A stretch of 25,829 bases of DNA. Origin: a virus. Shown here piece after piece: positions 5,551-18,621 of this stretch. Below the pieces are notes generated by a model. The model had not been told where the DNA came from, did not search any database, and saw only the letters and a list, made by a program, of their open reading frames with translations. The stretch spans positions 1 to 25,829 of IMG/VR virus record IMGVR_UViG_3300047551_001167. One strand, written 5' to 3'. The first letter of the stretch is position 1. Every line of letters begins with the position of its first letter. The position numbers and the translations under genes were made by a program.

Positions 5551-5959
5551 GGATTCGCCTCGCAGTCATGATCGGGTTATTGGCATTGGGGATGCGCGTG
5601 CCGTCTTTGCATCGGTTGGTGCGGCTGATGGCTTCGACAAGCGGCGCATAGTCGAGCAGATCAAGGTCGATATGCTTCTTGATATAAGCAGTGCGCCAGC
5701 GCATCACCTCGTTTGCAAGCAGGGCCTTGTCAGCTTTCAAATCCAAGACGACCTTGCGTAAATCGTCGATCGTGTTCGCCGCTTCCTTCCATTCCTTGAG
5801 CGTGACGACCTTCTGCCTCGGGCGCAGTCGCTCTCGATCCGGCGCAGGTTCTCCACGCTTGCGTGCTTCGAGCTTCTCGCACTTCTTGCGGTAGAAGTTC
5901 ATCAGCGCATGAACTCGCCGATACGCATCGACCGACACCATCTCGGGCTTGTCGCTCAT
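5414..5959 (-). CDS. Coiled-coil protein with WR-x-x-Y / A-x-x-x-TN domain
   Basis: A 181-codon ORF. Its start ATG at 5959 overlaps by 4 bases (ATGA) the stop of the overprinted frame in the methyltransferase, and GGAG stands 8 bases upstream. Residues 1-90 are charged and helical, including a likely coiled coil. Then comes LLANEVMRWRTAYI followed by LVEAISRTNRCKDG, a pattern also seen in the 86-residue protein at 6985-7245. No enzyme motif is visible. The last 45 residues, from about MTARRIRD, cover rusA in another frame, are Arg/Ser/Gln-rich and look like read-through of a lost stop. The functional protein probably ends around residue 135. Overlap with rusA is 137 bases, far beyond the 4-26 bases usual here. 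Confidence 0.55.
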   Translation of the reverse strand: MSDKPEMVSVDAYRRVHALMNFYRKKCEKLEARKRGEPAPDRERLRPRQKVVTLKEWKEAANTIDDLRKVVLDLKADKALLANEVMRWRTAYIKKHIDLDLLDYAPLVEAISRTNRCKDGTRIPNANNPIMTARRIRDTDTLAAESQRLLPQVPQSHGHRRSGPQVPGSDQGTDRACDGED

Positions 5960-6984
5960 GTCTTATTCTCCGATACAAGCGAGAAGAGTCGTGAACGCAT
6001 ACGCCGCGACCAAAGGGACAACGCCATTCCCACATGCTCGAAGTCTGTCCACCCTCGAGGCCATCCCATCATCCACTCTGTGAATATTGGATTGAGTCTC
6101 TGACGACTCCCAACCTGATCTCCCAGCTTGTACTTCCCCGCTGCTCCCTCTCGAATTTCCAATGTCCCGCCCTCCCCGTCGCAAGCCGCTGGAGTTTGCC
6201 AGTTTTGAGATCGATGGGGCCAATTCGGGATGTTGCTCGAGAATTCCTCGCCATGCGTCGAAGTCTTTTGGTCCTGGTGGGAAATCTGGAAGTTTACTTC
6301 CGTCGCTTCGCTCAGTTGTCCTCTCCGTTGGCCTAGTTTCGCCGATCCACAGTGATCGGTTGAGCATGGAGTCGGCCAGTTCTCGACCACATCCATGATT
6401 GTCGGATTCTTTCTTGATCCTCTCGGCTCTCCGGTTAGGACTCTCGCTTCGGCCGCCGCTGTTACGGTTGGCCACGCCGAGAATAAAGAGTCGTTCGCGT
6501 CGATGCGGCGCGCCGACTTCCTCCGCTGTAAACAATCCCGCCGAACATCTGAAACCCATTTCTTGTAGATCTCGGAGAACGTCGGAGAGTCCGAGTGTGA
6601 GATGACCTGCGACATTCTCGAAGAACACGAAGCGAGGTTCGATCTCCTTAGTGATTCGACGGATCTCAGGCCATAAGTGTCGCGAATCATCTTCACCAAG
6701 TCGCTTACCTGCGCTTGAGAACGGTTGACACGGGTAGCCGCCAACGACGAGATCCACGACTCCACGCCACGGCTTGCCGTCGAAGGTTCTAAGGTCGCTC
6801 CAGATAGGACATGGAGCCAACGCTTTCTCTTCCATGCGAGCCGCCAGGATTGCGGCCGGGAAAGCTTCGCGTTCAACGAAACATACTGCGCGAGCCGCTC
6901 CGTTTGTTGCGAGTTCAAGTCCGAGGTCAAGACCTCCGACTCCTGAGCAGATTGATAAAGTGTTGATGGTAGGTAAATCCACAT
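5956..6984 (-). CDS. Overprinted ORF across the cytosine methyltransferase
   Basis: A 342-codon frame without a stop, lying in a second frame over the whole methyltransferase gene. Its ATG (6984) stands 6 bases after AGGAG (6995-6991), better spaced than the methyltransferase's own first GTG. Its TGA forms the ATGA overlap with the next gene's ATG at 5959, the coupling used throughout this genome. The first 180 residues are Ser/Arg-rich and unremarkable. The C-terminal part has VENWPTPCSTDHCG, NWQTPAACDGEGG and LNPIFTEWMMGWPRGWTDFE. From memory these resemble the C-terminal sequences of proteins annotated as phage DNA methyltransferases. It may be a real overprinted protein or only a conserved side effect of the methyltransferase frame. 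Confidence 0.4.
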   Translation of the reverse strand: MWIYLPSTLYQSAQESEVLTSDLNSQQTERLAQYVSLNAKLSRPQSWRLAWKRKRWLHVLSGATLEPSTASRGVESWISSLAATRVNRSQAQVSDLVKMIRDTYGLRSVESLRRSNLASCSSRMSQVISHSDSPTFSEIYKKWVSDVRRDCLQRRKSARRIDANDSLFSAWPTVTAAAEARVLTGEPRGSRKNPTIMDVVENWPTPCSTDHCGSAKLGQRRGQLSEATEVNFQISHQDQKTSTHGEEFSSNIPNWPHRSQNWQTPAACDGEGGTLEIREGAAGKYKLGDQVGSRQRLNPIFTEWMMGWPRGWTDFEHVGMALSLWSRRMRSRLFSLVSENKT

Positions 6985-6988
6985 TCAC
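5963..6988 (-). CDS. DNA (cytosine-5) methyltransferase
   Basis: A 341-residue C5-cytosine methyltransferase that transfers methyl from S-adenosylmethionine to cytosine in a short DNA target. Motifs are in order: I SICSGVGGLDLGLE (12-25), IV GGYPCQPFSSAGK (83-95) with catalytic Cys87, VI FENVAG (123-128), VIII GAPHRRERLFILG (159-171), then a variable target-recognition region and motif IX-X VDRLRACGNGVVPLVAAYAF near residues 308-327. The set is complete, so it should be active. The start is GTG at 6988, overlapping the previous stop by 4 bases, or GTG at 6982, which has better spacing to AGGAG. No cognate restriction enzyme is evident, though an HNH gene is close. It probably protects phage DNA from host restriction. 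Confidence 0.92.
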   Translation of the reverse strand: MNVDLPTINTLSICSGVGGLDLGLELATNGAARAVCFVEREAFPAAILAARMEEKALAPCPIWSDLRTFDGKPWRGVVDLVVGGYPCQPFSSAGKRLGEDDSRHLWPEIRRITKEIEPRFVFFENVAGHLTLGLSDVLRDLQEMGFRCSAGLFTAEEVGAPHRRERLFILGVANRNSGGRSESPNRRAERIKKESDNHGCGRELADSMLNRSLWIGETRPTERTTERSDGSKLPDFPPGPKDFDAWRGILEQHPELAPSISKLANSSGLRRGGRDIGNSRGSSGEVQAGRSGWESSETQSNIHRVDDGMASRVDRLRACGNGVVPLVAAYAFTTLLACIGE

Positions 6989-7245
6989 AGCTCCTGTCCT
7001 TTCAGATTCATGCCCTTCAGAATGCCGGACTTGTTGGTGGCGATGACTGCATCGTTGATCGCCTCGGTGCGCAGTCTCGATCCATCAACAAAGTAGAGCG
7101 CGCGCCATGCCGTCACTTCAGCGAGCAAGATCTCGCACGACTTGCGCAGATCCGCCATCGACTGCTGCGCCTGCGCCATCGTCGGCAGGATCTCATGCAA
7201 GAGCGCCTGCAAGTCCTCACGTGTCGGTTCACTTTCATTTGTCAT
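6985..7245 (-). CDS. Small helical protein with WR-x-x-Y motif
   Basis: An 86-residue protein. I chose the ATG at 7245 because AAGGA lies correctly upstream; the longer ORF to 7317 would run inside the HNH gene. It reads as one long helix (EDLQALLHEILPTMAQ and on) followed by LLAEVTAWRALYF and AINDAVIATNKSG. The same W-R-x-x-Y then A-x-x-x-TN-x-x-G layout ends the N-terminal part of the protein at 5959, so the two are probably distant paralogues flanking the methyltransferase. The start overlaps the HNH gene by 11 bases and the end overlaps the methyltransferase GTG by 4. Function is unknown. Confidence 0.65.
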   Translation of the reverse strand: MTNESEPTREDLQALLHEILPTMAQAQQSMADLRKSCEILLAEVTAWRALYFVDGSRLRTEAINDAVIATNKSGILKGMNLKGQEL

Positions 7246-17103: not shown

Positions 17104-17390
17104 ATGAGCAAAGTCTCACTGAGATGCTGATCGAAGTGCGTGACAGCGTGCGTGAGATCAAGCACAACCAAGAGATGATGCAGCAATCGCATCAGCAGAC
17201 TCACTCGGAAGTAGTGCGCTTGCGTCGTATCATCACTGGTGAAAGCGAGCCGGAACGCGGCCTCGTGCTTCGCGTGGATCGCTTGGAACAGCGGCAGGAA
17301 CGCTCATCGTTCCTTTCGCAAACTGCGATAGGTGCGGCGCTTACCGCAATCGTCGGCGCGATGATGGCGGCGCTTGGGTTCAGGCAGTAG
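17100..17390 (+). CDS. Holin-like (XhlA-type) small membrane protein
   Basis: A 96-residue protein with an N-terminal helical coiled coil (MNEQSLTEMLIEVRDSVREI), a heptad segment GLVLRVDRLEQRQERSS, and one C-terminal membrane helix (TAIGAALTAIVGAMMAALGF) ending in RQ. A charged coiled coil followed by one terminal transmembrane helix is the layout of XhlA/hemolysin-like holin partners. It would collect in the inner membrane and let the lysis proteins act. It is coupled by ATGA to the lipoprotein gene. The lysozyme of this phage has its own signal peptide, so the protein may trigger lysis by depolarisation rather than carry enzyme out. Confidence 0.6.
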   Translation: MNEQSLTEMLIEVRDSVREIKHNQEMMQQSHQQTHSEVVRLRRIITGESEPERGLVLRVDRLEQRQERSSFLSQTAIGAALTAIVGAMMAALGFRQ

Positions 17391-17418
17391 GGGCTTGGGG
17401 GTCAGGTACTACGAAAGG

Positions 17419-18621
17419 ATGAAGGAAGTGAAGGAACAACACGCACTGCATTACATCGCCGAGAGCCTGCGGCCTCTCGCGATCGAGATCTCGAAACTGA
17501 TACCAGATCAGGCGAACGCGCGAAAGCACAACGAGAAAAACATGGATGCGATCGTTGCAAGCCTCTCGCGGTTTGGGCAACGATCGCCGATCGTCGTGCA
17601 ACGGCAAGGCATGATCGTTCGGGCAGGCAACGGAAGACTCGAAGCGGCGAAGCGTCTTTCATGGTCGCACATCGCGGCGGTCATCGTCGATGAAAGCAGT
17701 GTCGATGCTACGGCGTTTGCGATTGCCGACAATCGCACGGCTGAACTTGCCGAATGGGATGACAGCGTACTCGCTGGCCTTCTCGATTCACTTGATCCCG
17801 AAGACCTCAAGGTCACTGGCTTCAGTGAGAAGGATCTTGAACTCATCTTGAACGATCAGATGCCGGAGCCTGTGCAGGATGAAGTGCCGGAGCCGCCTGC
17901 CGATCCGATCACAAAGCCCGGCGATCTGTGGTTGCTCGGCGATCATCGACTGCTGTGCGGCGACTCGACGAAGGCGGAAGATGTCGCGCGGCTGATGGAT
18001 GGTGAAAATCCAAGGCTTATGGTAACCGATCCCCCATATGGCGTTGCATACGAAGGTGGTCAAGTCAACACTAAGAAGCGTGAGAAGTTACAGAGTGACG
18101 ATATGCCTGATGTGTTTGCGCCAGCGCTAGCCTGCGCAAAAACCATCATGCCACAAGGTGCTTGGTATATCTGGCATGCAGGAAAGTACGCCGAGCCGGT
18201 CTATGCTGCAATCAGGCAATGCGGATATGAAACACGATCTCTGATCGTATGGCACAAGCTGAAAGCACATTATGGCGCACCAAGCGCTCACTACTGTCAG
18301 AAGCATGAGCCATGCTTGTATGCCGTGAATGGATCTGCTGGATTCATAGGGCCTTCGAATGAGGTGACGGTATGGGAAATCGAGCAACCCAGTCGGAATG
18401 AGTTTCATCCGACACAGAAGCCAATCGAGTGCATGGCCAGAGCGATTAGAAATCACGATGCTACCGTGATATATGATCCATTCTTAGGATCTGGCACAAC
18501 TCTCGTGGCCGCTGAGCAACTAGGTCGCAAGTGCTATGGCATTGAGATCAGCCCGCAGTACTGCGATGTTATCGTCAAGCGATGGGAGATACTAACAGGC
18601 AAGAAGGCAACGCTCGCATGA
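17419..18621 (+). CDS. ParB-domain / DNA N-methyltransferase fusion
   Basis: A 400-residue protein. Residues 25-140 are a ParB/Srx-like nuclease-fold domain (NARKHNEKNMDAIVASLSRFG, then IVRAGNGRLEAAKRL). Residues 165-400 are a DNA methyltransferase with VTDPPYGV (DPPY at 204-207) ahead of DPFLGSGTTLVA (353-364), the motif order of the beta class. DPPY points to N6-adenine or N4-cytosine methylation. Such fusions are common in phages and prophages. Region 18000-18560, containing target recognition, is AT-richer and poorer in GATC than the N-terminal part, which fits exchange of the recognition segment. The start is uncertain: ATG 17419 is too close to AAAGG, while GTG 17428 is better spaced. 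Confidence 0.87.
   Translation: MKEVKEQHALHYIAESLRPLAIEISKLIPDQANARKHNEKNMDAIVASLSRFGQRSPIVVQRQGMIVRAGNGRLEAAKRLSWSHIAAVIVDESSVDATAFAIADNRTAELAEWDDSVLAGLLDSLDPEDLKVTGFSEKDLELILNDQMPEPVQDEVPEPPADPITKPGDLWLLGDHRLLCGDSTKAEDVARLMDGENPRLMVTDPPYGVAYEGGQVNTKKREKLQSDDMPDVFAPALACAKTIMPQGAWYIWHAGKYAEPVYAAIRQCGYETRSLIVWHKLKAHYGAPSAHYCQKHEPCLYAVNGSAGFIGPSNEVTVWEIEQPSRNEFHPTQKPIECMARAIRNHDATVIYDPFLGSGTTLVAAEQLGRKCYGIEISPQYCDVIVKRWEILTGKKATLA

Follow-up and report, generated by a model that had tools for sequence, protein, structure and literature searches.

A conserved overprinted reading frame in a phage cytosine methyltransferase gene and its probable role as the motif-IX subunit

In a 25.8-kb record of an uncultivated virus that carries terminase and portal genes (25,829 nucleotides, analyzed whole and referred to here as the window), two long open reading frames occupy the same kilobase. 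Frame A resembles a C5-cytosine DNA methyltransferase; the question raised by the locus is whether frame B, read from the same DNA, is a gene in its own right and, if so, what its product contributes. ORF analysis placed both frames on the minus strand throughout and found both open, with frame B in +1 relative to frame A (Table 1). The upstream sequence is AGGAGCTGTGAATGTGG, with the start region reading AGGAG-CT-GTG-A-ATG-TGG, and the ATG of B follows the GTG of A by 4 nt, so that a single ribosome site is usable by both. The initial annotation had described two same-strand frames of 341 and 342 codons over one kilobase, Shine-Dalgarno spacings of 2, 6 and 8 bases, and a TGA of frame B that forms a junction with the next gene; all three statements held, the strand being minus and the TGA overlapping the downstream ATG as ATGA (5959-5956). 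Scans for promoters and terminators gave matches at chance level only.

Table 1. Positions of the features of the overlapping locus in window numbering
Feature	Coordinates	Strand	Description
Frame A	5963..6988	-	GTG start, 341 aa; predicted catalytic (alpha-like) subunit of a C5-cytosine methyltransferase
Frame A motif content			motifs I, IV, VI, VIII and X present; motif IX absent
Frame B	5956..6984	-	ATG start, 342 aa; overprinted gene, probable motif-IX/target-recognition (beta-like) subunit
Paired start codons GTGAATG	6982..6988	-	A: GTG 6988-6986; B: ATG 6984-6982
Shine-Dalgarno-like AGGAG	6991..6995	-	2 nt before A GTG, 6 nt before B ATG
A motif I LSICSGVGG	6932..6958	-	
A motif IV GGYPCQ	6725..6742	-	catalytic Cys
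A motif VI ENVAGH	6602..6619	-	
A motif VIII RRERLF	6485..6502	-	
A motif X GNGVVP	6014..6031	-	
B motif-IX-like segment LNPIFTEWMMGWPRGWTDF	6040..6096	-	B residues 297-315; just before A motif X
B NWQTPA	6187..6204	-	[WL]PTP-type repeat, probable recognition region
B NWPTPC	6364..6381	-	[WL]PTP-type repeat
B AWPTVT	6460..6477	-	[WL]PTP-type repeat

Two further observations concern the genes around the pair. The gene that follows A/B differs between the window and its closest relative, L001, in which a Mom-family DNA modification protein (L001:4002-4700, PF25680, E 7.7e-26) lies directly after the pair. Elsewhere in the window, at 17374-18621 on the plus strand, a second DNA methyltransferase combines a ParB-like domain with an N6/N4 methylase (PF01555, E 1e-24).

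Frame A carries the C5-cytosine methyltransferase motifs I, IV (PCQ), VI (ENV), VIII and X, and matches both phrog_363 (E 1.3e-63) and PF00145 (E 1.4e-33). The Pfam match covers only positions 2-182 of the 324-position profile and ends after motif VIII, past which frame A keeps only motif X, near its C-terminus; similarly, the A family profile aligns to residues 10-177 of M.HhaI. A pattern scan of 97 A homologues detected no motif IX in frame A, and the strict motif-IX pattern was found in the +1 frame, i.e., frame B, of most of these 97 loci. In the window, the DNA just before motif X of A codes WMMGWPRGW in B, not motif IX in A. Frame A is an incomplete C5 methyltransferase, with motifs I-VIII and X and without motif IX. 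Its initial description as a complete enzyme failed on the truncated Pfam match and the missing motif; the related claim, that the DNA coding motifs IX-X of A codes WMMGWPRGW in B, is corrected likewise: the segment precedes motif X, and A has no motif IX there to encode. What had been missed is that motif IX, absent from A, is carried by B, and this points to the probable function of B.

One alternative is that frame B is an unselected by-product of the amino acids and codon habits of A. To its credit, the conservation of A alone gives a considerable similarity to B, since frames in which the amino acids of A were held fixed and its codons re-drawn synonymously still scored a median of 138-146 bits on B profiles. 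Every control holding A fixed was nevertheless exceeded, and the comparison with about 170 relatives shows selection on both frames. The window locus has no stops in B after its ATG, against a mean of 5.07 in the A-synonymous shuffles (P = 0.00015). In viral loci picked by A similarity alone, the +1 frame is open over almost the whole gene in nearly all cases, and its stops are usually far below the shuffle level; in 16 conventional monomeric enzymes that carry motif IX in frame, the +1 frame has stops at 0.96 of the null expectation, that is, at the expected rate. Held-out B frames scored above all 20 synonymous re-codings of their own A in 127 of 127 loci, with a median of 259 bits for real frames vs 138 for re-coded ones (297 vs 146 with a second profile), and this excess did not weaken for loci more distant from those used in training. 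The motif-IX pattern was present in 92 of the 127 real frames and in 1 of 2540 re-coded ones. The signal also transferred between clades separated by a median A identity of 37%: after training on the window clade, 120 of 132 loci of the other clade exceeded all 50 shuffles, as did 12 of 12 in the reverse direction.

The codons of frame A carry the corresponding imprint. Across 96 non-redundant genes, the four-fold third base of A G308 is G in 98% (21% expected) and that of A310 is C in 99% (33% expected); these frozen positions code the Gly and Pro of the MGWP motif of B, and the third base of P258, C in 92% (28% expected), codes a further Pro of B. At 85-97% protein identity in both sets, four-fold sites differ by 0.105 in A vs 0.262 in flanking genes, and the ratio of third- to first-position differences is 1.16 vs 3.03; the flanking controls, which were non-overlapping ORFs only, show no synonymous deficit. 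Synonymous re-coding costs B 29 bits before motif IV, 31 bits between motifs IV and VIII and 61 bits over the rest, and the loss over the first part indicates that the N-terminus of B is itself constrained. These results identify frame B as an overprinted gene that is conserved and under protein-level selection along its length, and the by-product explanation is all but excluded.

The initial annotation had offered two readings, a conserved overprinted gene or a frame kept open as a ribosome bridge to the next cistron, and had proposed to distinguish them by stop avoidance in B and synonymous constraint in A. Both measures came out positive in the comparisons above, and the first reading is supported. 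In favor of a translational bridge stands only the ATGA by which B ends on the next gene in the window. Against it, particular residues of B are conserved although a bridge would have no use for them, and in most relatives the stop of B falls at varying positions, from about 65 nt ahead of the stop of A to 28 nt past it. Given this residue-specific conservation and the variable position of the stop, the bridge reading is unsupported and very improbable.

If B is a selected protein, its sequence should tell what kind of protein it is. Frame B matches phrog_1008, annotated as 'DNA methyltransferase' (E 3.3e-20); no model in Pfam or NCBIfam matched it, and searching the sequences of solved structures with the B profile returned no match. 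AlphaFold2 modeling of B alone reached a mean pLDDT of only 54.5 with the window alignment and 58.4 with a deeper sister-clade alignment. Such poor models provide no evidence for a fold; they would fit a subunit whose folding depends on its partner, a possibility that they do not prove. The C-terminal pattern of B, LNPxxxEWLMGWPxGW, is in register with motif IX of the monomeric enzymes (LTPRECARLMGFPDTF) with identical spacing, and hhalign of the B segment against motif IX gave E 0.0096, equaled by 3 of 2000 column shuffles. This direct match is modest, and the single-chain and tandem relatives described below are the stronger evidence. The distribution of conservation between the frames was compared in pairs not selected on B identity: over the VIII-X stretch, B is the more conserved frame in 78-92% of pairs, a share that varies with divergence, and over motifs I-VIII A is the better conserved frame.

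In certain actinophages the two parts are arranged differently. Mycobacteriophage DillTech15 gp66 and Gordonia phage Gudmit gp58 each contain motifs I-VIII, [L/W]PTP repeats, an EWMM-type motif and motif X in one chain. In Peaches (gp77/gp76) and Sebastisaurus (gp34/gp35) the halves are tandem genes, the second half lying in the +1 frame. A profile of the C-terminal part of B detected DillTech15 (E 2e-10), Peaches (7.6e-8), Sebastisaurus (2.5e-7) and Gudmit (0.0043), against a best E of 1.7 among 39 monomeric enzymes and 400 shuffles used as controls. Because this profile finds the second halves of the actinophage methylases, the C-terminal part of B is homologous to the VIII-X segment of the single-chain relatives, comprising the recognition region and motif IX. 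We consider B likely to be the motif-IX subunit and probably the target-recognition part as well, the role in specificity being inferred in the absence of biochemical data.

The relatives also show several variations of their own. A recognition-like block around PTPTxHN, placed in frame B before LNP/INP, is shared by four loci (L006, L020, L079 and L115) on diverged backbones, and its recurrence suggests that modules are exchanged within frame B. The overlapped genes of a third clade (L246, L247, L249, L250 and L260) have GSCPCQ and GEQV in A instead of GGFPCQ and ENV, and their B frames end in WLMG[YF]P. In two single-chain actinophage genes (L278:807-2150 and L280:1456-2841), the +1 frame is B-like over the motif VI-VIII region and then runs into stops, as might be left by an overlapped ancestor. 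In mycobacteriophage Peaches (L282:999-2094), the gp76 frame is B-like upstream of its annotated start, and gp76 is probably longer than annotated, with a greater overlap with gp77.

A different objection is that B, though a real protein, takes no part in methylation chemistry and acts, for instance, as a regulator or counter-defence protein with its origin inside the methyltransferase gene. The lack of any Pfam or NCBIfam match, the lack of a confident fold and the absence of a biochemical link between B and A speak for it. Against it, single-chain methyltransferases contain the C-terminal segment of B in frame, A is without exactly that segment, and B was not found without A in the loci examined. 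We regard such a separate role as unlikely, and the reading of B as the motif-IX subunit is retained.

How B is expressed bears on a further rival, in which a +1 programmed frameshift after motif VIII joins the catalytic part of A to the recognition region and motif IX of B. Several points favor this explanation: the actinophage tandem pairs hold their second half in +1, so that one +1 shift would produce the full enzyme; in one locus, L019:2455-3261, a methyltransferase N-terminal half of the frame-A type (GGFPCQ) is fused in frame to the C-terminal half of B; and a paper on frameshift prediction names methyltransferases among the genes known to contain frameshifts (PMC10885494). The L019 fusion may be a natural frame fusion or a sequencing or assembly error. 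Against the frameshift, the constraint on B reaches far upstream of motif VIII (29 + 31 bits), and this N-terminal constraint is not needed by a product fused after that motif; B retains its own start codon; and a fused A-B chain in the window would be without motif X, which remains in A. Of 93 non-redundant loci of the sister clade, 67 start B with ATG and 3 with GTG at the clade position, and a frame-A NTG codon lies 4 nt upstream of the B start in 64 of the 93, although Asn codons elsewhere in the sister-clade genes are mostly AAC (466 vs 269 AAT). A point on the other side is that in L001, the closest relative, B starts with TTG, not ATG. Independent initiation of B is the likely mode, as inferred from sequence without expression data, and the frameshift is considered improbable.

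To assess how widespread the arrangement is, B relatives were counted in several collections. A single scan of GTDB species genomes yielded 446 confirmed relatives, and among 299 genomes sampled from one phylum, 17 had a B-type match. In all 80 bacterial loci found with the B profile and kept, A-type methyltransferase motifs were present in frame -1 relative to B, with one stop in the A core in six loci and a stop in B in one. B as a free gene without A was found neither in these 80 loci nor in a further sample drawn with a different profile. Single B queries matched 221 and 110 records of cultured phages, not all of which are overlapped, the single-chain DillTech15 being an example. In the annotated overlapped records that were examined, usually only A is annotated; B alone is annotated in Alfacinha1, Ssp-JY39 and SOVA965, and both frames in Paenibacillus phage Bloom, where BLOOM_57 lies inside BLOOM_56 and both are named 'DNA cytosine methyltransferase'. 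The overprinted pair is conserved across phages and prophages at hundreds of loci. We found no description of a phage-wide overlapping methyltransferase subunit in the literature searched.

Long same-strand overlaps of two conserved genes are rare and are usually rejected by gene callers. Here, with 446 relatives in GTDB, 17 of 299 genomes in one phylum and 221 phage records, such an overlap is apparently a routine arrangement. The overprinted, tandem and single-chain forms provide a natural series for studying the origin and dissolution of overlapping genes.

Considering these data together, we hypothesize that the locus encodes a split, overprinted C5-cytosine DNA methyltransferase with A and B as its subunits, a likely reading that is inferred from sequence, with no expression, interaction or methylation data. 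The frame A chain would provide SAM binding and catalysis through motifs I-VIII and X, including the catalytic Cys, and the frame B chain would supply motif IX at its C-terminus, complete the small domain and most likely read the target. Each chain alone would be without an essential part, and the two would associate into one enzyme; the paired starts, 4 nt apart behind one ribosome site, may give a roughly equal dosage of A and B. The synthesis of both proteins, their association, the necessity of B and a specificity set by B are all inferred. If B is the recognition subunit, the annotation of orphan phage methyltransferases, single-ORF cloning and target prediction have used half of the enzyme. 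A bolder reading is that a large proportion of the C5 methyltransferases of phages and prophages now annotated as single proteins are two-subunit enzymes with the recognition subunit overprinted in +1, and that shifts of frame turn the overprinted, tandem-split and single-chain forms into one another; taken jointly, these propositions have only a slight balance of evidence on their side. If they are true, the most variable, specificity-setting part of the enzyme sits in a frame ignored by most annotations.

Division of a C5 methyltransferase between two chains has precedents, against which the window pair can be compared. Monomeric enzymes of the M.HhaI type are similar to A over M.HhaI residues 10-177; they carry an in-frame motif IX, which A of the window does not. 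The closest likeness is to M.EcoHK31I (isoschizomer M.EaeI; YGGCCR), a heterodimeric C5 methyltransferase of two polypeptides, as proposed for the window, in which motifs I-VIII and X lie in the large subunit and motif IX in a small polypeptide (PMC3404938). In M.EcoHK31I, the gene of the large subunit also encodes the small one, in a different frame. Of the features of this type, A has the motif set of the large subunit (I-VIII and X, without IX), and B has two: it carries motif IX in a second polypeptide, with the modest direct motif match noted above, and it lies in another frame of the same DNA. The two systems differ in that B is nearly as long as A and starts 4 nt after it, and apparently in the recognition domain, which is placed in the large subunit in M.EcoHK31I, whereas conservation in the window points to B. 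The window pair also has a phage/prophage setting, unlike M.EcoHK31I, and the likeness rests on motif layout, by analogy and without sequence comparison.

M.AquI (CYCGRG) is likewise a split two-subunit C5 enzyme with motif IX in its second chain, as in the window; that chain carries motifs IX and X together, whereas in the window motif X remains in A. The M.AquI layout is met by Peaches gp76 and Sebastisaurus gp35, and these tandem pairs fit it better than does the window pair. Members of phrog_1008 and the single-chain actinophage methylases, such as DillTech15 gp66, share with B the B-type recognition and WMMGWP segments; unlike the window, the single-chain enzymes hold motifs I-VIII, the B-type segment and motif X in one frame and one chain. 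The logic of the split enzyme is already known from M.EcoHK31I, and the overprinted phage pair would be a variation on it.
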